From positions 62,001-126,000 of the forward strand of contig JANSWZ010000001.1 in the NCBI GenBank assembly GCA_024743215.1: a stretch of DNA of 64,000 nt, in the 5' to 3' direction. Positions 5,344-33,452 of the stretch are shown piece by piece (position 1 is the first letter of the stretch; each line of letters begins with the position of its first letter). A program made the position numbers and the translations under genes. The DNA comes from Alphaproteobacteria bacterium. Its GTDB lineage: Bacteria; Pseudomonadota; Alphaproteobacteria; Rhizobiales; GCA-2746425. The notes under the pieces are model-generated. The model saw only the letters and a list, made by a program, of their open reading frames with translations. It was not told the origin of the DNA and did no database searches.

Positions 5344-6297
5344 GTGGGAGCATTGCGTATGATTCGAAATATACAGCCCCAAATTGTTATGCCGCGCCCC
5401 TTGGAGCCTGGTGACAAAATCCGGTTTGTATCACCGGCCAGCCCGCCAAACCGTGAGGATGTCGAAGCCAGCGTCGCGCTTGTTGAAAGCTGGGGGTTCA
5501 AGGCAGATGTCGGGCCACATGCCTATAACAAGCTCAATTATCTGGCCGGAACAGATGATGAGCGGTTATGTGACTTTAACGAAGCGCTGAAGGATCCACA
5601 GGTCAGGGCGATTTTTGCAACACGTGGCGGCAAGGGTTCTTACCGGATCGCTGATCGTCTGGATTTTAGTCGTGCGCGGCGTGATCCCAAGTTTCTGGTG
5701 GGCTTCAGTGATGTCACGATCCTGCAGATGGCTCTGTGGAAGCAGGGTGTTGGTGGCGGCATACATGGCGCATTGAATGCGGCGGATTGGGATGCACCTG
5801 AATCACCGGGTAGAATATCACTGAAAGACTTACTCACCGGCCAGTCTGAAGTGGGGCTTGCGGTTGACCCTGCAAATGAAACAATGTCTCTGACGACGTG
5901 TGGTGTTGCGGACGGCCCGTTGGTCGGTGGTAATCTGGATATGATTGCAACAGCTGCCGGGTGGGCTCTGCCCAATCTCAATGGCTGTATTGTTTTGATT
6001 GAAGCGGTAAACATCTATCTGGGTCAAATCGATCGGCAGCTCTCCATGCTGATAAAGGGTGGTTTTCTGGATGGTGTCGCCGGCGTCGCACTCGGTCAGT
6101 TTACCGGGATCAAGCCGAGTGGAACCTGGACTATCGTGGACCTGTTACGCGAGTATCTGTCACCGTTGGACGTTCCTATACTGGGTGGCTTGCCACTCGG
6201 CCATGACGTTGGCGCGCAGCGAATTGCGATGGGCTTTCCAACGAGGATCGATGCTGAGCATGGAATTTTGACAATCAACCGACAGCGCCAAATCTGA
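5344..6297 (+). CDS. LD-carboxypeptidase, peptidase family S66
   Basis: This family removes the terminal D-alanine from murein tetrapeptides in the cytoplasm during peptidoglycan recycling; some relatives (MccF) cleave microcin C. The Ser-Glu-His triad can be placed at S in VGFSDVT, E in LIEAVNIYLG and H in LGHDVGAQRIAMG. ATRGGKGSYR is the conserved Gly-rich segment. There is no signal peptide. Starts are GTG at 5344 or ATG at 5359; both keep the domain whole. The length (312-317) is normal. I cannot separate LdcA from MccF-like activity, but LdcA is likelier with no antibiotic genes nearby. It converges on the NUDIX gene. Confidence 0.88.
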   Translation: MGALRMIRNIQPQIVMPRPLEPGDKIRFVSPASPPNREDVEASVALVESWGFKADVGPHAYNKLNYLAGTDDERLCDFNEALKDPQVRAIFATRGGKGSYRIADRLDFSRARRDPKFLVGFSDVTILQMALWKQGVGGGIHGALNAADWDAPESPGRISLKDLLTGQSEVGLAVDPANETMSLTTCGVADGPLVGGNLDMIATAAGWALPNLNGCIVLIEAVNIYLGQIDRQLSMLIKGGFLDGVAGVALGQFTGIKPSGTWTIVDLLREYLSPLDVPILGGLPLGHDVGAQRIAMGFPTRIDAEHGILTINRQRQI

Positions 6298-25076: not shown

Positions 25077-27068
25077 GTGGTACGTATTTTTAAGAAATTT
25101 CCGAAAGATGTCAGCAAAGTCGGCGTTCCGCGCAGGCGGCGTCTTGCTGCCAAAATTGGTGCTGCTTTCGGTGCTGCATTGGCATGTCTGTTTGTGATAA
25201 TGGTCGTATCGGGAACATTGCGTCAGGTCAGCAATGAGTTACCACAATACGGGTTCTACTCCATCCGAGATCTTCACATTATGCTGCGGGATACCACAGC
25301 TCTTGGTGATGCAGTTGCTGGTGCGCGTCTTGCCCCCGCAAACCCAGAGAGCCTTGAACGGCTCTCTGAAGCCAATGATCTGGCCTATATCCGTTTTGTC
25401 CGGGTGGATCGCGAAGAGACGATCAAAAGTCTCCCTGAATATGGCGAGTTGATAGATAGCACTGCCCGGCAGATCGAAGCCATAGATGCGGTGCTTGCCA
25501 AGGGACTGCCATTCGATCCGCCAACGCTTTTGCGTATCGAAGAGGAGATCAGCGAAATCGAGAAACAAATGAACGAGTATTATTACTCGTTCGGGGCCAA
25601 TACAAATATTGCCTTGGCCGATTTGCAATCCATATTGGGGGAATTGTGGTGGGAAATCATAGCCTCGTTGCTGGCTCTGTCGGTGGTTTCAATTGGCTCA
25701 GCGCTTTTGTTGGTCAATCGCCACGAAGTTCTGGCCGCCGTCAGGTACCTTGCATCACATGATCAAACGACGGGCGTTCACAACCGAAACTGGATGTCGC
25801 TGAACGGTCAATTTTTTCTCAGGGAAGCTCAAAAAAACAATCACTGCGTCAGTGTCGCACTGATTGATCTGGATCACTTCAAGAGCATCAATGATACCTT
25901 TGGCCATCACATTGGAGATCAGGTTCTGGAAGCCGTGGGTGAGACACTTCTAAGGTTCGCTGACACGCCTAATGTCAGAGCCTGTCGCATTGGAGGGGAT
26001 GAGTTTGTGATCATCGTCTCATGCGAAAACAAGGATGATGCACACGCCTTGTTTGCAGATCTGTCTGATGCGCTTAATCAGCATGTCGAAGTTGAAACGC
26101 ACCGGCTTAGAATTGGCGCGAGCATTGGCACAGCCAGTTTCCCGGAAGATGGTCAGGATCTTGAAACATTGCTCAAGAATGCTGATCACGCTGTCTATGC
26201 GGCCAAGGGAGAGGGGCGCGGCAGGGTTGTCAGCTTCTCAAGTGAAATTCTAAGTCAGGTCAATACGCGCTCCAAGATGGAAAGTCGTTTGCAACCCGCG
26301 ATGCAGAACGATGAACTCCCAATTTTCTGGCAACCACAATTCAGGCTTGCGACCGGTCATATCACGGGTCTGGAAGCTTTGGTCAGGTGGCGTGACCCAG
26401 CCACGGGCAACATTGTTGAACCATCTGAATTCATTCAGCTTGCAGAACGCAGTGATCTGATTCTTGAGCTTGACCGATATGTTTTGCGAACAGCGTGTTC
26501 TGATGCCGTTGGATTGTTGTTGATACAGCCTGAGTTGACATTTGCCGTAAATCTGTCCGGTAAGAGCTTTCAGGATGCAGGGCTTCCCTCTTACGTGAAG
26601 ACTGTCCTGGACCAAACTGGCTTGTCGCCGGACCGTCTTGAGATCGAAATTACGGAAAGTGTATTCATCGGAAACCGGGTCATTTCGGACAAGGTGTTCT
26701 CTGAGCTTGTGGATCTTGGCGTCAAACTTGCCATTGATGATTTTGGGACAGGCTACTCCAATCTGGCTTCGCTTGCGGAACTGCCACTGGATCGTATCAA
26801 GATTGATCGGTCCTTCATCAAAAACGCAGAATTGCATGAAAAAAAGAGAAAGCTCGTTCTTTCGATACTCGCTTTTGCCAAATCGCTTGATATTGATGTT
26901 GTGGCAGAAGGTGTTGAAAACAACGAGCAGATGGAATTGCTCATTCGCAACCAGTGCCAGTATGCGCAAGGTTTCTACCTTTCTCATCCGCTGCCTAAGG
27001 AAAAACTTGAGACTTACCTCCTCCAAGTGGGACATACGGGCAAGAATGAGATCAAGGATACAGCGTGA
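25077..27068 (+). CDS. dcpA: Dual diguanylate cyclase/phosphodiesterase, DcpA-like
   Basis: This 663-residue inner-membrane protein has TM1 at about 24-46, a periplasmic sensor region (47-190), TM2 at about 192-214, GGDEF (about 225-385) and EAL (about 400-650). Both catalytic signatures are intact: GGDEF at 306-310, and EAL at 433-435 with DDFGTGYSNL later, so synthesis and breakdown of c-di-GMP are both possible. The pair with the periplasmic pterin-binding gene upstream reproduces pruR-dcpA, where the pterin-loaded sensor biases DcpA toward breakdown and limits attachment. The start is GTG, preceded by GAGGAA. Confidence 0.85.
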   Translation: MVRIFKKFPKDVSKVGVPRRRRLAAKIGAAFGAALACLFVIMVVSGTLRQVSNELPQYGFYSIRDLHIMLRDTTALGDAVAGARLAPANPESLERLSEANDLAYIRFVRVDREETIKSLPEYGELIDSTARQIEAIDAVLAKGLPFDPPTLLRIEEEISEIEKQMNEYYYSFGANTNIALADLQSILGELWWEIIASLLALSVVSIGSALLLVNRHEVLAAVRYLASHDQTTGVHNRNWMSLNGQFFLREAQKNNHCVSVALIDLDHFKSINDTFGHHIGDQVLEAVGETLLRFADTPNVRACRIGGDEFVIIVSCENKDDAHALFADLSDALNQHVEVETHRLRIGASIGTASFPEDGQDLETLLKNADHAVYAAKGEGRGRVVSFSSEILSQVNTRSKMESRLQPAMQNDELPIFWQPQFRLATGHITGLEALVRWRDPATGNIVEPSEFIQLAERSDLILELDRYVLRTACSDAVGLLLIQPELTFAVNLSGKSFQDAGLPSYVKTVLDQTGLSPDRLEIEITESVFIGNRVISDKVFSELVDLGVKLAIDDFGTGYSNLASLAELPLDRIKIDRSFIKNAELHEKKRKLVLSILAFAKSLDIDVVAEGVENNEQMELLIRNQCQYAQGFYLSHPLPKEKLETYLLQVGHTGKNEIKDTA

Positions 27069-27199
27069 AACGCTATCGTTTCACACTCTGGAGCTGAGTG
27101 AAGATTGTTGCAGGGCCGCCAGAACCCGCCGCGATGTGCGGGTGCACCGCTGGGCCGCTTTGATCGCAAAGCAGACGGATTAAACTAAATCGACATCTA

Positions 27200-27213
27200 T
27201 TGATGAGCGTCAA
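27200..27213. promoter_or_regulatory. FNR/FixK-type box upstream of the CBS-BON gene
   Basis: TTGAT-GAGC-GTCAA fits the FNR/FixK consensus TTGAY-N4-RTCAA. It lies about 130 bases upstream of the CBS-BON start. A second box with the same half-sites precedes the ferredoxin operon (29056). It implies control by oxygen limitation. The regulator itself is not in the window. Confidence 0.7.
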
Positions 27214-27339
27214 CCAAACGCTGCCCGCATCCTGTTGCATTACCCCTATTTCCGTGGCCATCGGCAGTTGTTTTCAACTGATGATGGCCGTTGTGGAAGC
27301 AGAATGAACAGACAGATGATGACAGGAGAAAACGGCGGC

Positions 27340-28026
27340 ATGATAGCAAAGGATTTGATGTCCACGGATATCGTTACGGTTGGGCCGGGTCACAGCATCT
27401 TGCATGCCGCGCAAATCATGCTCAGCAACAAAGTGAGCGGAGTGCCGGTCATTGACGATACTGGCAAATTGATTGGTCTGTTGACCGAAGGTGATCTGAT
27501 GCGCCGCACCGAGCTTGGGGGCGGGGCTCTTCGCGGCAGCTTTGCGACAGAAACCAGAAATGGCGACAGGGCTGCGGACTACATTCGAAGCCGCAGTTGG
27601 CGGGTCAGTGACGTCATGTCACGCGATGTTATCAGTGTGCCAGCAGAGTGTTCGCTCGCTTGCATTGCCGAGTTGATGGAACGCCACCATTGCAAACGCG
27701 TCCCTGTTGTCCGCGATAGCACCATGATTGGTATCGTAAGTCGTGCCGACTTGCTCCGGGCGATTGTTTCAGCGCCACCGGAGCATATAATTCTGGGTGA
27801 CAATGCGTTGCGAATCGCCACCATGGCGCGACTTGTCACAGATGCTGGGCTGGAGGAATTCCATTTGCGAGTCATGATTGAAGATGGCCATGTGACTCTC
27901 GCTGGAACGGTGGAAACCGTGTTCCAACGTGACGCTGCACGTGTTGCTGCGGAAAGCGTAAGCGGATGCAAATCAGTAACAAATGACATCACGATCTCTG
28001 GCGCAGAAAGTAGAAATGGCAACTGA
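27340..28026 (+). CDS. CBS-pair and BON domain protein
   Basis: This protein of about 228 residues has two CBS motifs (IAKDLMSTDIVTVGPG...IGLLTEGDLMRR and VSDVMSRDVISVPAE...IGIVSRADLLRAI) followed by a C-terminal BON domain (about 165-225, HVTLAGTVETVFQRDAA). CBS pairs bind adenosine nucleotides and BON domains bind membranes or lipids; the target is unknown. Starts at 27304, 27316, 27319 and 27340 are all possible. The last is chosen because AGGAG at about 27324 precedes it, but the choice is weak. It is followed after three bases by pfkB and preceded by an FNR/FixK box, so it is probably an oxygen- or energy-state protein. Confidence 0.85.
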   Translation: MIAKDLMSTDIVTVGPGHSILHAAQIMLSNKVSGVPVIDDTGKLIGLLTEGDLMRRTELGGGALRGSFATETRNGDRAADYIRSRSWRVSDVMSRDVISVPAECSLACIAELMERHHCKRVPVVRDSTMIGIVSRADLLRAIVSAPPEHIILGDNALRIATMARLVTDAGLEEFHLRVMIEDGHVTLAGTVETVFQRDAARVAAESVSGCKSVTNDITISGAESRNGN

Positions 28027-28029
28027 TTT

Positions 28030-28950
28030 ATGAGCGGTATTCTATGTATTGGTCTCAATCCATCGGTTGATATCTCGTGCACCGCACAGACTGTTGGGCC
28101 CATTCATAAAGTGCGCACCAGACATGAAAAATATGATCCCGGTGGTGGCGCGGTTAATGTTGCGCGGGTCATTCACGTTTTGGGTGGAGAGCCGATCCTC
28201 GTCTATCTGAGCGGTGGCAAGACCGGATCCATGTTTGAAACCCTGTTGGCGGATTACGGGTTCTCCCAACACTGTTTTAAGATGCGCGGTTCTGTGCGTG
28301 TTGCCTATATGGTGCGTGAAGAAAGCACAGGCCTTGAATACCGGTTTGTTCCCGAAGGTCCTGAAATAGGGCCCGATGAGCTTGAACCCTTGATGAAATT
28401 TGTCGAAAATTTTGATGGAGACCATTTTGTCGCCAGCGGCAGTCTGCCGTGCGGTGTGCCATCTGACAGTTACGCACGTATTGCGGACCTGACCCAAAAG
28501 AAAGGCGCAAGGTTTATCCTCGATACATCGGGTGAAGCCCTCCATGAAGCCTTTGAACATGGCGGCATTTACCTTGCCAAACCAAGCAAGCACGAATTGG
28601 AACTCTACGCAGGTCATAAGCTGGATGAAGCCGGTCTGCACGATGTTGCCGCGGCTTTGATTGCCAAGGGCGTGGTTGAGAACCTTGTTGTGAGCCTGGG
28701 TCCCGACGGTGCGCTTCTGGCGCATGCCGGTGGTGTGGTTCAATTGCCTTCACCTGCAGTCAAACCGTGCTCAGCCGTTGGTGCTGGCGACAGCTTTGTC
28801 GGGGCCATGACCTGGGGCCTGTCTCAGGGCAGGCCAGTGGCTGAGGCATTCCGGTTTGGCCTGGCTGCCGGAGCCGCAGCCGTCATGACGCCCGGCACGG
28901 ATCTGTGCCGTCACGATGATGTGCACATGCTTTTTGGTAGGCTCGAATAG
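28030..28950 (+). CDS. PfkB-family hexose-phosphate kinase (6-phosphofructokinase II-like)
   Basis: This 306-residue ribokinase-superfamily kinase has GGGAVNVARVIHVLGG near the N-terminus and GAGDSFVGAM with catalytic base D254. The closest pattern is PfkB/1-phosphofructokinase. The likely reaction is ATP-dependent phosphorylation of fructose-6-phosphate; tagatose-6-phosphate or fructose-1-phosphate are alternatives. It lies directly after the CBS-BON gene under an FNR/FixK box, which suggests raised glycolytic flux under low oxygen. Confidence 0.85.
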   Translation: MSGILCIGLNPSVDISCTAQTVGPIHKVRTRHEKYDPGGGAVNVARVIHVLGGEPILVYLSGGKTGSMFETLLADYGFSQHCFKMRGSVRVAYMVREESTGLEYRFVPEGPEIGPDELEPLMKFVENFDGDHFVASGSLPCGVPSDSYARIADLTQKKGARFILDTSGEALHEAFEHGGIYLAKPSKHELELYAGHKLDEAGLHDVAAALIAKGVVENLVVSLGPDGALLAHAGGVVQLPSPAVKPCSAVGAGDSFVGAMTWGLSQGRPVAEAFRFGLAAGAAAVMTPGTDLCRHDDVHMLFGRLE

Positions 28951-29055
28951 GCGAGAGCGTTGATTATTGCAGTGTGGTTTCAGCAAAGCTGATCACATTG
29001 AATTGCCTGGATTGGCTGGTCTTTACAAAATTAAATTGAATTCAGGCTGCTCATT

Positions 29056-29096
29056 TTGATCTCCGTCAATTAGAGTTAGTATGCTAACTGTATTAT
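29056..29096 (+). promoter_or_regulatory. FNR/FixK-dependent promoter of the ferredoxin operon
   Basis: TTGAT-CTCC-GTCAA (29056-29069) is an FNR/FixK-type box. A TATTAT at 29091-29096 would be the -10 of a start at about 29103, putting the box centre at about -41, the class II activator position. Between them lies a perfect inverted repeat AGTTAG-TATG-CTAACT (29074-29089), over the expected -29 to -14 region, which could bind a second regulator. The geometry is measured from the sequence; use by FNR or FixK is inference. Confidence 0.72.
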
Positions 29097-29185
29097 TCCC
29101 TAAATTTTGAACGCATGCCAATTTCATCGAGCAGGATAGATGTTCCCCTCGACCTTGGCGCCACTTGCGTAAGGGAAGGTGTTCC

Positions 29186-29401
29186 ATGACCATTAAAAGC
29201 ATACAGGGATGCATTGGCTGTGAAGAATGTGTTCGTTCTTGTCCGTGCGATGTCATTCGCATGAATGAGCAGACCGGAAAGGCCTTCATCGCCTATCCGG
29301 CAGATTGTCAGATTTGTCATTTGTGCCGGATGTATTGCCCCGTTGATGCGATCGAAATGTCACCGGAAAAATCGATACCAGTCGTGGTCTCATGGGGGTA
29401 A
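29186..29401 (+). CDS. 2[4Fe-4S] ferredoxin, AprB-like
   Basis: This 71-residue ferredoxin has two complete CxxCxxCxxxCP motifs (C9, C12, C15, C19 and C41, C44, C47, C51), so two [4Fe-4S] clusters are expected; an extra Cys follows at 21. It resembles the N-terminal ferredoxin part of adenylylsulfate reductase beta subunit (AprB) but lacks its tail. It has no signal peptide. It overlaps the next gene by 10 bases and is first in an operon with a haem-b membrane protein and a Tat-exported flavoprotein. Probable role: electron carrier for that complex. Confidence 0.88.
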   Translation: MTIKSIQGCIGCEECVRSCPCDVIRMNEQTGKAFIAYPADCQICHLCRMYCPVDAIEMSPEKSIPVVVSWG

Positions 29402-30057
29402 TTGTGAGCCGGGACCTAAAAACAATCAATGTAATCCTCGGAGTCCTGATTTTCATTGGTTTGCCGATGCTCTTATATATTTTGGGAGACGCTCCACGAC
29501 GGTCCTTGCTGAAGGAAGCCATTTCCCTAATCACTCTGCTGGCCTTCTCATTGATGCTCGGTCAGTTCTTTCTTGCGCGTAGCAACGAGGCCGTTATCAA
29601 TCTGTTTGATCGCAAGCACATCCAGAACGTGCACAAGGCGATTGCCTATCCGGCCCTGATCATTTTCCTGGTTCATCCGTTTCTGATAGTTTTTCCGCGC
29701 TATTTCGAGGCTGGCGTTGATCCTGTTGATGCGTTGTTGATGATGCTGACATCGTTTGACAATCGCGGAATCTTACTGGGGATGGTTGCATGGGCGCTTC
29801 TTGTGATCATCGCCCTGACGGCAATATTCCGGATGCGTCTGATCAAGCGGTACAGGATCAAATACCGGGACTGGCGAAAATTTCACGGCTACATGACCGT
29901 TGCTTTTGTCGTGCTGGCAATCTGGCACGCAATTGAATTGGGACGACACACGGACAGGATTATGGCGGCATTTTTCATTGCTCTGGCGATTGCTGGAATC
30001 ACTCTCTTGTTCAGATTGTATTTTGGCGCCGCGAGCAAAACCGTGGAGATACGTTAG
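29392..30057 (+). CDS. Ferric-reductase-like haem-b membrane protein
   Basis: This 221-residue integral membrane protein has about six hydrophobic helices. Two helices carry His pairs spaced 14 apart (HKAIAYPALIIFLVH and HGYMTVAFVVLAIWH), the bis-haem pattern of the ferric reductase/cytochrome b superfamily, so it should pass electrons across the inner membrane. It lacks the FAD/NAD domains of true ferric reductases. Lying between a ferredoxin gene and a periplasmic flavoprotein gene, it probably links cytosolic or quinone electrons to the flavoprotein. It ends immediately before the flavoprotein ATG. Confidence 0.82.
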   Translation: MGVIVSRDLKTINVILGVLIFIGLPMLLYILGDAPRRSLLKEAISLITLLAFSLMLGQFFLARSNEAVINLFDRKHIQNVHKAIAYPALIIFLVHPFLIVFPRYFEAGVDPVDALLMMLTSFDNRGILLGMVAWALLVIIALTAIFRMRLIKRYRIKYRDWRKFHGYMTVAFVVLAIWHAIELGRHTDRIMAAFFIALAIAGITLLFRLYFGAASKTVEIR

Positions 30058-31839
30058 ATGACGAATTTAGACAAAACCCAAATTGTAAACGAACCCGCAC
30101 AGGCAGGGCCTTCGCGCCGTGAATTTTTGGCATTGGGCGGCGGCATCGTGGGCGCAGGGGCGATGGGTTTCAACGCCGGTTGGGCACAGAATGACACCAT
30201 GATTGATGTGGCGTCTGTATCAAACACGAGTCATGAAACGGACGTGCTTGTCATTGGTGGTGGGATGGCTGGTCTTTTTGCCGCTGTCAAAGCGCATGAT
30301 GCCGGTGCTTCTGTGCTGATGGTGGCCAAAGGGCGGCTTGGATCATCTGGCCTGACCCCATTTGCCAAGGGCTTCTTTGCCTATGACCCGGCGGTTGAAG
30401 ATATGTCGCTGGATGAGTTTACCGATGCGGTTTCACACTCGGCGCTGGGAACCAATAATCCCGTATATACACGCCAGACAGCAGAGCATTCGTTGGCCTG
30501 CGCCAAGAACCTGGAAGAATGGGGTTTCTTTGAGAGCAACCTTTACAACGCGTCCTTTTCCAAACCGATAAGTGCGCGCAATATTCCAGTGGTTGAAAGG
30601 GTCATGATGACTCATCTGCTTAAAGATGGTGAGCGGATTGCTGGCGCTGCAGGTTTTCGTCTTGATGCTGAAGAGATCGTTACATTTACAGCCAAGAGCG
30701 TGATTTTGTGTACCGGCGCAGGTGGGTTCAAGCCAAACGGATTTCCAGTCTGTGACCTGACACATGACGGAACAATCATGGCTTACAATATCGGAGCAAA
30801 GGTGACTGGCAAGGAATGGAACGATGGACACCCTGCCAGAACGGTAAACGCCGCCGCGACCTATGATGGTTGGGGCGACATGTTCGATCAGGTGCCGAAC
30901 ACCCTGGGCATTGGTGTACGTCATGATCTGGGCGTTGAACTGAATTATGCCGCTTATGTAAACGGAAACCCAATTCAGGGAGGGCCTGGTTCACCAGTGC
31001 AATCAACGGCCGAAGGCGGGCCTTACCGTCCAACGGAGTTTTCCGTCGAAGCCAATCGTGGCGGTGGTGCAGAGGAATCTGGCGATAGAAGATCCTCCCC
31101 AAATGCAGACAACAATGGTCCATCAGATGGTCCGCCTCCCGGTATGAGCAGCAGCCCTGTCGGGGGGGCGTCAGCAGGCATGGCTATTCACAAATCAGAG
31201 GGCCTGGTGCCAATCAATGAGCGCTGTGCGTCGAATGTACCGGGGCTTTTTGCGGCCGGTGACGCACTTGGGTCTCACATGTGTGGCGGGATTTATACCC
31301 AAATCGGCTCATCGCTTGCCGGGTCGGCGGTTCAGGGCGCGATTGCCGGGGAGGCGAGCGCTGAATATGCCAGTTCGGTTGAAGTTCCAGCGGTCTCTTC
31401 AGAAACGCTGGCCAATGTTGAAGATGAGATTCTGGCGCCATTTAAACGAGAGGCGGGCTACGGCCCGGCATGGGTGACGCAAACCCTACAGGGAATCATG
31501 ATCCCGAATTTTGTGCTTTACATCAAGAAAGAGAGCCTGTTGCGTGCAGCGCTTTCATACATTGAGGAACTTCGTGATCATCATATGCCTATGTTGCGCG
31601 CAAGCGACATGCATGAACTGCGATTGGCACATGAGACTGCCAACATGATTATTAGTGCTGAAATGAAACTTCGTGCTTCGCTCATGCGAACGGAAAGCCG
31701 TTGCAGCCATTTTCGGTTGGACTATCCCGAAGTAGATGATGAAAACTGGCGGTGCTGGATCAACATTTACAGGGATGAAAAGGGCAGCATGCGGCTAGAG
31801 AAACAGGCGTTCGACGCTTGGCCTGCTCAAGCGCAGTGA
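30058..31839 (+). CDS. Tat-exported FAD flavoprotein, fumarate reductase/AprA-like
   Basis: The 593-residue protein has a twin-arginine signal (SRREFLAL, R20/R21) with a probable cut after GWA (43), so it should act folded in the periplasm. The dinucleotide fold is DVLVIGGGMAGLFAA (about 62-76) and the second FAD segment NVPGLFAAGDALG (about 393-405). The overall pattern is the fumarate reductase/succinate dehydrogenase flavoprotein superfamily, nearest the AprA branch. A Gly/Ser/Pro/Asn-rich low-complexity stretch (about 334-374) sits where part of the capping region is expected. The substrate is unknown. With ferredoxin and haem-b partners and an FNR-type promoter it may be an anaerobic reductase. 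Confidence 0.83.
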   Translation: MTNLDKTQIVNEPAQAGPSRREFLALGGGIVGAGAMGFNAGWAQNDTMIDVASVSNTSHETDVLVIGGGMAGLFAAVKAHDAGASVLMVAKGRLGSSGLTPFAKGFFAYDPAVEDMSLDEFTDAVSHSALGTNNPVYTRQTAEHSLACAKNLEEWGFFESNLYNASFSKPISARNIPVVERVMMTHLLKDGERIAGAAGFRLDAEEIVTFTAKSVILCTGAGGFKPNGFPVCDLTHDGTIMAYNIGAKVTGKEWNDGHPARTVNAAATYDGWGDMFDQVPNTLGIGVRHDLGVELNYAAYVNGNPIQGGPGSPVQSTAEGGPYRPTEFSVEANRGGGAEESGDRRSSPNADNNGPSDGPPPGMSSSPVGGASAGMAIHKSEGLVPINERCASNVPGLFAAGDALGSHMCGGIYTQIGSSLAGSAVQGAIAGEASAEYASSVEVPAVSSETLANVEDEILAPFKREAGYGPAWVTQTLQGIMIPNFVLYIKKESLLRAALSYIEELRDHHMPMLRASDMHELRLAHETANMIISAEMKLRASLMRTESRCSHFRLDYPEVDDENWRCWINIYRDEKGSMRLEKQAFDAWPAQAQ

Positions 31840-32312
31840 TCAGTTTTGGCGTTATGAGGTGCGCAGGCATTTGAAGTGTTCTTAAATGCGCTGAGAATCA
31901 AATTTCAACTGGTTATTACAGGTCAAACTGCCTTTGCCGTTTCGCTTTCCGTGCGCGTTGTGTTTGCAGAAAGATGAGATCCATCTGTCCGCCGGGCTTA
32001 TCGAGCCTGGTCAGGCTCCGCATGACATTCAACCAACTCACCAGCTTCCGAGCCACTGAATGATCAAGGCATATGGGGACCGGTTTGGTTCGAAGGAGAT
32101 CGGGCAAATCTGCGCCGTCACCTCTGTCAGGATAGCCTCGTCAAACAATCAAATTTATGCGAATGTCCATTTCGTTGATGGTAACTACCAAATTTGTACT
32201 TTGAGACTGCCTAACACGCTGTCGATGCAATAAATCGTCCCGGCGTTCCTGATAAGGTCGTTTGAGATTGGGTGAGAGAGCACAAAGCTGGATGAAAAAG
32301 ACTGGAGTGGAC
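31840..32312. other. 473-base intergenic region with no supported gene
   Basis: No gene with a ribosome binding site or recognisable product is visible. A minus-strand frame (about 32140 to 31916) encodes about 70 residues (containing PVPICLDHSVARKLVSWLN) but has no family I recognise and no credible start. It may be a gene remnant or chance. No tRNA, clear terminator or FNR box was seen. Confidence 0.5.
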
Positions 32313-33452
32313 ATGAGTGATTTTCCCCAAAATGGCACGTTTCTGGGACGCGTGTGGGATGCCGATGCGAGGGGTCCCAGTGTTGTCACTCTGCGGGACA
32401 ATCATCTGGTTGACATAACGTCGGCCGATGCGCCTTTGGTGCGCGACATTTGCGAAATGGAAGACCCGCTGGGCTATGTGCGCAGCGCGCCTGGCACCAC
32501 TCTTGGTTCACTGGAAGACTTTTTGGGGCGATCGCCGGGTGATCTATCACAATCCCATCTGCTGGCTCCATGCGATTTGCAGGCAGTCAAAGCCTGCGGG
32601 GTCACCTTTGCCAATTCCATGGTTGAGCGGGTGATTGAAGAGCAGGCGGCAGGCGATCCTTCAAAGGCGTTGGCCATCCGCGAGCGTGTTGTCAGTCTCA
32701 TCGGCACCAGCCTGAACAATGTGGAAGCGGGCTCGGAACAAGCTCAGAAAATCAAGGAAGCCTTCATCCAAGAAGGGATTTGGAGCCAATATCTGGAAGT
32801 GGGTATTGGACCTGATGCCGAAGTTTTCTCGAAAGCACAGGTGCTTTCATCCGTCGGATATGGCGCTGAAGTCGGCCTTCATCCTATATCCAAATGGAAC
32901 AATCCCGAGCCGGAAGCTGTCCTCGTGGTTTCTTCTGCGGCGCGTATCGTGGGTGCGACATTGGGCAATGACGTTAATCTGCGCGATGTTGAAGGGCGTT
33001 CCGCCCTGTTGCTTTCCAAAGCCAAGGACAACAACGCCTCGTGCGCCATTGGGCCATTTATCCGTTTGTTCGACGAAGAATATAATCTGGATGATGTCCG
33101 CCAGATGGATCTCCAGATGACGGTAAGCGGTGAGGATGGCTTTGAACTTGAGGGGCTTTCGTCCATGAGCCAGATCAGCCGCGATCCGCAGGAGCTTGTG
33201 ACGCAGACCATTGGTCGACATCACCAATATCCGGACGGGTTGGTTCTGTTTCTCGGCACACTCTTTGCGCCGACAAAAGATCGCGATGTGCCCGGCGAAG
33301 GGTTTACTCATAAACTCAATGATGTGGTCTCTATCAGCAATGCTGATTTGGGGACCCTTCGTAACACTGTGAATCTTTCAACCAAGTGCGCTGAATGGAC
33401 ATTTGGTGTTCGCGCCCTCATGCAAAACCTGTCCGAACGCAAATTGATATAG
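32313..33452 (+). CDS. Fumarylacetoacetate hydrolase (FAH) family protein
   Basis: This protein of about 379 residues has the FAH-fold core in its C-terminal two thirds: EVGLHPISKWNNPEPEAVLVV, ATLGNDVNLRDVEGRSALLLSKAKDNNASCAIGPF and metal ligands in that region. Long FAH-family members of this type act on 2-oxo sugar acids or diketo acids, for example 2-keto-3-deoxy-sugar acid dehydratases or hydrolases in sugar catabolism. The exact reaction is not clear. The ATG at 32313 follows GGAG by five bases and is preferred to 32262 or 32292. It stands alone, which gives little context. Confidence 0.8.
   Translation: MSDFPQNGTFLGRVWDADARGPSVVTLRDNHLVDITSADAPLVRDICEMEDPLGYVRSAPGTTLGSLEDFLGRSPGDLSQSHLLAPCDLQAVKACGVTFANSMVERVIEEQAAGDPSKALAIRERVVSLIGTSLNNVEAGSEQAQKIKEAFIQEGIWSQYLEVGIGPDAEVFSKAQVLSSVGYGAEVGLHPISKWNNPEPEAVLVVSSAARIVGATLGNDVNLRDVEGRSALLLSKAKDNNASCAIGPFIRLFDEEYNLDDVRQMDLQMTVSGEDGFELEGLSSMSQISRDPQELVTQTIGRHHQYPDGLVLFLGTLFAPTKDRDVPGEGFTHKLNDVVSISNADLGTLRNTVNLSTKCAEWTFGVRALMQNLSERKLI

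Follow-up and report, generated by a model that had tools for sequence, protein, structure and literature searches.

Bacteria use exported flavoprotein reductases to respire compounds, or to detoxify them, outside the cytoplasm, and for many of these enzymes no substrate is known. Reductases with a PF00890 domain have been described as wired via cytochrome c or flavin mononucleotide (FMN) domains (PMC8238504; this and the other papers cited by number are drawn on in excerpt), and some oxidoreductases reach the periplasm folded, through the twin-arginine translocation (Tat) system, with partners that have no signal of their own. Here, we describe a cassette of three genes that combines features of several such systems. 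It lies at positions 29186-31839 in a 64,000-nucleotide stretch of an alphaproteobacterial genome (contig JANSWZ010000001.1, order Rhizobiales; the whole stretch is hereafter the window), and encodes a ferredoxin, a b-haem membrane protein and a flavoprotein with a Tat signal. We propose, with a probability of roughly 0.6, that the three gene products form an electron line across the inner membrane which ends in an exported reductase. The anchors of this proposal in the sequence are the parts themselves, their co-occurrence, the Tat motif, the His pairs, the predicted orientation of the membrane protein, the donor domain of its long form, the clade of the flavoprotein and an upstream regulatory box.

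Each of the closest described systems shares part of this arrangement. The 8-methylmenaquinol:fumarate reductase (MFR, SdhABE) of Wolinella succinogenes has a Tat signal on a flavoprotein of the FrdA superfamily (SdhA), a signal-less iron-sulfur partner that is co-exported, and a separate membrane subunit (PMC2680327). However, the iron-sulfur subunit of MFR is larger and of the SdhB type, its anchor is the Cys-rich SdhE where the cassette has a b-haem protein, and the window flavoprotein scores only 50.6 bits on the MFR model (NF042982, cut-off 1100) and lacks the dicarboxylate Arg. Adenosine phosphosulfate (APS) reductase, AprAB, and the phosphoadenosine phosphosulfate (PAPS) reductase of Methanothermococcus thermolithotrophicus join a flavoprotein to a 2[4Fe-4S] ferredoxin subunit, and the subunits of the latter match both the window flavoprotein and the window ferredoxin (PMC10322725). 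Unlike the cassette, these enzymes are cytosolic, have a Trp in the ferredoxin and other substrate residues, and have no haem protein. A cytosolic AprA-like pair beside an ATP-binding cassette (ABC) transporter in Pseudanabaena and Methylocystis also sets a flavoprotein and a small ferredoxin side by side, but has no Tat signal and no PF01794 protein among its annotated neighbors, keeps the ferredoxin Trp and falls on a separate branch.

On the membrane side, MsrQ and MsrQ-like proteins (PF01794) are short six-helix, two-haem proteins that serve a periplasmic enzyme, and MsrQ-like clusters with FMN-binding partners have been described (PMC8238504), whereas the partner in the cassette is a flavoprotein with a ferredoxin rather than MsrP or an FMN-binding protein. 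NADPH oxidases (NOX) and ferric reductases, such as SpNOX and NOX5, share the fold of the haem protein and, in eight of the loci compared below, the NAD(P)H domain; the window form is without this domain, and its electrons presumably go to a protein rather than to oxygen or iron. Exported PF00890 flavoproteins of the FccA/UrdA type receive their electrons through c haems or through a flavinylated FMN domain (PMC8238504), neither of which was found here: the Pfam matches of the window flavoprotein at E 0.1 include no multihaem c or FMN_bind module. Thus, the parts and their logic are known, but we did not find their conserved combination described. No account of a PF01794 protein, ferredoxin and Tat flavoprotein set came up among the open-licence papers listed by our searches, as judged from titles and the beginnings of abstracts, or in the excerpts of PMC8238504.

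Parts, order and spread of the genes

A first-pass annotation, made from the sequence alone, had read the three genes as a 2[4Fe-4S] ferredoxin without a signal, a b-haem protein with two H-X13-H pairs and a flavoprotein with an SRREFL Tat signal. Domain scores and motifs confirm every one of these parts, all on the + strand:

29186..29401, + strand: 2[4Fe-4S] ferredoxin, 71 amino acids, no signal peptide, Gln42 where AprB has Trp
29404..30057, + strand: b-haem membrane protein with six helices, short PF01794 form, 217 amino acids from GTG
30058..31839, + strand: flavoprotein of the FrdA/AprA superfamily with Tat signal, 593 amino acids
30112..30126, + strand: core SRREF of the Tat motif, flavoprotein residues 19-23
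30832..31161, + strand: Pro/Gly-rich flavoprotein segment in the place of the capping domain, residues 259-368, Pro+Gly 28% against 13% elsewhere

The set is seen again in 18 other loci (17 with three genes, and Ilyobacter with two), which rules out chance. Across the resulting 19 loci, from five phyla, the ferredoxin gene adjoins the flavoprotein gene without exception, and a PF01794-type protein stands alongside in 18, as a short form in 10 and as a long form in eight. Searching genome contigs with the haem protein gave eight loci, all in the order ferredoxin, haem protein, flavoprotein, from a Rhodobacteraceae metagenome-assembled genome (MAG), two Octadecabacter, Frigidibacter, Yoonia, a Phycisphaerae MAG, Labilibaculum and a Chlorobium MAG. 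Compared with their window counterparts, the flavoproteins of these eight loci are 66-68% identical, the ferredoxins 72-88% and the haem proteins 41-58%. A search with the flavoprotein added 10 loci, with a ferredoxin in 10/10 and a PF01794-type protein in 9/10: one on a Paracoccus seriniphilus plasmid, one on an Ilyobacter polytropus plasmid, and eight in genomes that all belong to a single order, in a different class of the window's phylum. All eight of the latter carry the long form, with the haem gene followed by ferredoxin and flavoprotein in six and by flavoprotein and ferredoxin in two, the trio always together. One protein (L074; loci are given by our own numbers where needed) is counted as PF01794-type by similarity: PF01794 is unlisted for it at E 0.001, but it is matched by the window protein (E 3.5e-11) and has both His pairs. 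The Ilyobacter locus has no PF01794 gene, and a Fer4_5/FMN_bind membrane protein is encoded upstream. What emerges is one conserved flavoprotein-ferredoxin core with modular inputs, which may be a short haem protein, an NAD(P)H-linked haem protein or an FMN protein.

The flavoprotein belongs to the FrdA/AprA superfamily, passing the curated cut-offs of both FAD_binding_2 (PF00890, E 2.2e-17, 63.8 vs 20.4 bits) and Succ_DH_flav_C (PF02910, E 9e-15, 55.2 vs 20.8 bits). In a tree of 37 rows, the 21 family flavoproteins form one clade (100/100) with AprA adjoining (93/90) and the succinate dehydrogenase (SDH) and NadB rows far away; long branches meet at the deep forks, and the placement nearest AprA is only a lead. 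With that warning, the tree puts the family on the AprA side, as the label 'AprA-like' of the first-pass annotation had it. An RR motif is present in 19/21 family flavoproteins, and the two without it are Ilyobacter paralogues that form a side pair; the tree thus does not place the window flavoprotein among cytosolic proteins whose Tat motif is defunct, and the searches turned up no orthologue of assigned role. The tree took in seven of the 20 loci of one search (L043, L044, L045, L046, L048, L050 and L055), together with two plasmid matches from a more distant set of about 75, and left out own_L003. The ferredoxin has eight Cys and matches Fer4_7 (E 1e-8).

The window membrane protein matches Ferric_reduct (PF01794) at E 4.9e-11, with 43.2 bits against a cut-off of 28. 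Six predicted helices, an N terminus inside and two H-X13-H pairs are found in 10/10 short forms; in the window the pairs are H77/H91 and H161/H175 (numbered from GTG 29404), and these four residues are the putative haem ligands. The gene could begin at ATG 29392 (221 amino acids, overlapping the ferredoxin gene) or GTG 29404 (217 amino acids), and the latter is probably the start, as judged from alignment to relatives. Even at 221 amino acids, the protein has none of the C-terminal FAD or NAD(P)H domains of NOX and ferric reductases, whereas the long form (457-505 amino acids) carries NAD_binding_1 and FAD_binding_8 in 8/8. An AlphaFold2 model of the short protein (pLDDT 75.7) has SpNOX as its best structural match (Z 14.2, 182 residues, root-mean-square deviation 4.5), followed by b561, NOX5 and STEAP. 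The first 20 rows of the VIA comparison are NOX, b561, STEAP and DUOX entries with Z of 8.5-14.2, and for helical bundles a Z below about 13 can reflect a common arrangement; Foldseek with this model gave nothing at E <= 0.001. The window protein has no NCBIfam match at E 0.1, with no check made of which MsrQ model that library includes, and no MsrP gene is among the seven window proteins scanned. The tree of haem proteins leaves out L023 and has no MsrQ rows; its deeper forks are not used here, and its rows for haem proteins standing alone (L014, L016, L017) look like wrong-frame open reading frames.

Among the genomes sampled, the cassette is rare: it occurs in 1/385 genomes of the window's class, 2/398 of the phylum, and 3/147 of the family and 6/275 of the order of genome G907, and it is absent from the other four species sampled of the window's genus. 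Eleven other genomes of the window's order match the haem protein at 26-33% identity, with no ferredoxin or flavoprotein match in the short loci around these genes. This rarity, together with the spread over five phyla and the presence on two plasmids, suggests horizontal transfer. Viral contigs and a phage collection were scanned too, and apart from two SdhA-like phage matches nothing akin to the cassette came up; a scan of positions 26500-33000 against Rfam gave no match.

Two sets of neighboring genes deserve mention. On the Ilyobacter plasmid pILYOP01 (L031 6287-12720), one ferredoxin and three family flavoproteins, one of them with a Tat motif, come ahead of tatA-tatC-tatA, as if a Tat system were encoded together with its cargo. 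Elsewhere (L032 192-12035 and L033 1767-7896), a cytosolic AprA-like flavoprotein, a small ferredoxin and a HEAT-repeat protein are encoded next to an ABC transporter, and L032 has a sulfite exporter of the TauE/SafE type as well; these sets are perhaps a sulfonate-using relative.

Proposed electron path, purpose and oxygen control

In the path that we propose, the flavoprotein would bind flavin adenine dinucleotide (FAD) and the ferredoxin before leaving the cytoplasm, and the folded pair would be exported by Tat on the flavoprotein's signal. The six-helix protein would move electrons outward over the inner membrane via two stacked b haems, with quinol as the probable source for the short form, and NAD(P)H as that for the long form of other bacteria. 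From the outer haem, electrons would pass to the ferredoxin clusters, then to FAD, and finally to a periplasmic acceptor other than a classic dicarboxylate. In the window's host, low oxygen would turn the genes on. Co-export, quinol as the donor, the outward direction, action as a reductase and control by oxygen are what we infer; a route via b haems to the flavoprotein with the Tat signal had been suggested in the first-pass annotation, and the comparison supports it.

The same path could serve another purpose. An envelope repair or detoxification reductase, with a logic like that of MsrPQ and no role in respiration, is possible, if on the unlikely side. Its case comes from the company that the cassette keeps: two-component genes are found near it in L021, L030, L071 and L072 (several response regulators by eye), L025 has extracytoplasmic function (ECF) sigma or anti-sigma genes with an extracytoplasmic Metal_resist protein, L073 has an anti-sigma gene (its sigma factor by eye), and L071 encodes an EF-hand protein. 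The NAD(P)H-linked forms would, moreover, save no energy. Against this reading stand catabolic-looking neighbors in L060 and L064, and in the window an FNR-type box and the CBS-BON and pfkB neighbors that point to low oxygen. The boxes concerned, whose motif we take to be that of FNR/FixK, are as follows:

29056..29069, + strand: FNR/FixK-type box TTGATCTCCGTCAA, beginning 130 bp upstream of the ferredoxin start codon
27200..27213, + strand: FNR/FixK-type box TTGATGAGCGTCAA, upstream of the CBS-BON and pfkB genes (27304-28950), given for context only

The pattern has three sites in the window where 0.45 are expected, and three of 100 shuffles reach that number. Genome-wide there are 60 sites, compared with 10 for the backwards pattern (Poisson P ~7e-27 with 10 as the mean). 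HTH_Crp_2 has four matches above its cut-off in this genome, and an Fnr-like protein with CDTCPIHNRTMC is encoded beside an FNR-type site, one of six such sites that lie within 20 kb (G000:C10:95500-115400, L075). The box before the cassette supports a predicted low-oxygen expression in the window's host. Among the 19 cassettes, a strict box lies within 350 bp only in the window and L025 (0.05 expected, the shuffles of this comparison preserving single-base content alone), and FNR-type control is thus not general. The word 'anaerobic' in the first-pass annotation therefore has support for the window's host but not as a statement on the family: 17/19 cassettes are without the strict box, 8/19 are NAD(P)H-linked, and several have envelope-stress-type regulators as neighbors.

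By eye, the genes of the L075 stretch look like a low-oxygen stress island. A second Tat flavoprotein (SRRQFL, PF00890) is encoded in the same genome at G000:C12:802830-805000 (L076 1831-3990). An FNR-type box precedes it by about 70 bp, and directly downstream is the gene of a small protein that has four CxxCH motifs; this pair looks like a c-haem-wired reductase of the FccA/UrdA type.

Place of the ferredoxin and direction of flow

The ferredoxin could either stay in the cytosol or be carried across with the flavoprotein, as the first-pass annotation had noted, and our comparison favors the second option without proving it. A cytosolic ferredoxin would hand its electrons to the short form's inner haem, with the outer haem directly reducing the exported flavoprotein, and we regard this as unlikely. 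The ferredoxin has no signal, nor is there an in-frame signal upstream of its start; the short form, having no NAD(P)H domain, needs a donor; and in short-form loci the ferredoxin gene comes first and adjoins the haem gene. But the ferredoxin is also kept in 8/8 loci with an NAD(P)H domain, where this domain is itself cytosolic and would make a cytosolic ferredoxin donor superfluous. It is likewise present in Ilyobacter, which has no PF01794 protein, and it is paired with the flavoprotein in the cytosolic relatives. Being kept with short, NAD(P)H-linked and FMN-protein inputs, the ferredoxin tracks the flavoprotein and not the electron input. That the Tat system can carry signal-less subunits along is established, as in PaoABC (PMC4273604), and in Wolinella MFR an RR to QQ change in the flavoprotein lowered periplasmic activity from ~60% to ~4% (PMC2680327). 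Given the retention of the ferredoxin with every input, its pairing in the cytosolic relatives and the MFR precedent, export with the flavoprotein is more likely than a cytosolic donor role. If this is confirmed, a ferredoxin of an oxygen-sensitive type would be functioning in the periplasm. Tat hitchhiking and transmembrane electron transfer could then be tested on a gene set that is small and apparently portable.

Electrons might also flow inward, from an exported dehydrogenase that oxidizes a periplasmic substrate, via the ferredoxin and the haems, to the quinone pool. Enzymes of the FrdA/SdhA superfamily run in either direction, and an NAD(P)H domain is missing from the short form. Inward flow is nevertheless improbable: an NAD(P)H domain of the NOX type, which normally pushes electrons outward, is present in 8/18 haem proteins, and the Ilyobacter host is a fermenting anaerobe.

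Several points weigh against the outward electron line to an exported reductase. The long branches of the flavoprotein tree and the scarcity of strict boxes have been mentioned, and quinol is probably the donor of the short form by analogy with MsrQ. The AlphaFold2 model of the flavoprotein, built from nine sequences, reaches a pLDDT of 42.6. In the Rhodobacteraceae MAG (L021), one of the eight cluster Cys of the ferredoxin (5795-6007) is replaced by Ser, possibly by an assembly error. Finally, the ferredoxin on its own scores higher with polyferredoxins than with AprB-type subunits. Since the lone ferredoxin is not specifically AprB-like, a pairing like that of AprAB rests on gene order. The flavoprotein and ferredoxin may work like the two-subunit machine of APS reductase.

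Substrate class of the flavoprotein

A plain fumarate (dicarboxylate) reductase is very improbable, and we reject it. The superfamily domains and the QFHP-segment His, kept in 21/21 family rows, would suit such an enzyme. However, the Arg of the NRLGSNSL segment, which we take to be the substrate-binding residue of FrdA/SdhA (the roles of the aligned Arg and His are likewise presumed), is found in 0/21 family rows of the alignment vs 9/9 SDH/NadB rows, and in no column of the capping segment do as many as 60% of family rows carry Arg. The scores are also far under the cut-offs for SDH and fumarate reductase, with 111.1 bits on TIGR01812 (sdhA_frdA) compared with the 567.3 required. An exported APS or PAPS reductase is barely credible and is rejected too, despite AprA being the nearest group in the tree, PAPS and APS reductases being the second to fourth PDB matches of the flavoprotein, and a two-cluster ferredoxin being encoded with it in 19/19 loci: the aprA model gives 66.5 bits against a cut-off of 641.75, the AprB Trp is Gln in 19/19 family ferredoxins, the AprA residues aligned to H258 and H551 of the window flavoprotein differ, and APS and PAPS are cytoplasmic metabolites. 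The Trp in question stands beside the second cluster motif in three AprB ferredoxins (recovered at three of five AprA loci) and in 2/2 ferredoxins of the cytosolic relatives, and in PAPS reductase Trp42 has a proposed role in electron transfer (PMC10322725). By the absence of the dicarboxylate Arg and by this Gln, we judge the enzyme to be neither a fumarate nor an APS reductase.

The family has features of its own. K252, E253, K379, E381 and R522 are among the residues invariant in 21/21 flavoproteins, and the segment in the capping place is 92-163 residues long across the family, with 25-41% Pro+Gly vs 11-15% elsewhere. We consider it an even bet that these proteins form a hitherto undescribed exported oxidoreductase family in which a low-potential 2[4Fe-4S] ferredoxin rides the Tat system into the periplasm with its flavoprotein and is fed by a haem wire of the NOX/MsrQ type. 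This would be a third wiring beside the c-haem and flavinylated FMN modules, and with the dicarboxylate Arg lost and a Pro/Gly-rich segment in the place of the cap, it would probably serve a new substrate class.

The Pro/Gly-rich segment was considered as an export feature and rejected, as the Ilyobacter paralogues without a Tat motif also carry it. By eye, Pro/Gly-rich stretches are also present in adjoining extracytoplasmic proteins (a sensor loop, Metal_resist-type and small secreted proteins) of L021, L025, L027, L030 and L031.

Neighboring genes were likewise rejected as a guide to the substrate, whether the set common to L060 and L064, Lcl_C in L024 and L026, or CotH in L025, for no neighbor family recurs widely among the compared loci. 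The set common to L060 (5080-15128) and L064 (5210-15492, partly by similarity) consists of a TonB receptor, the long haem protein, flavoprotein and ferredoxin, an IclR gene (in L064 by similarity), a protein like those of the major facilitator superfamily (MFS; in L060 just below the Pfam cut-off, 32.3 vs 33.4) and a sulfatase, and this neighborhood may hold a clue to one substrate.

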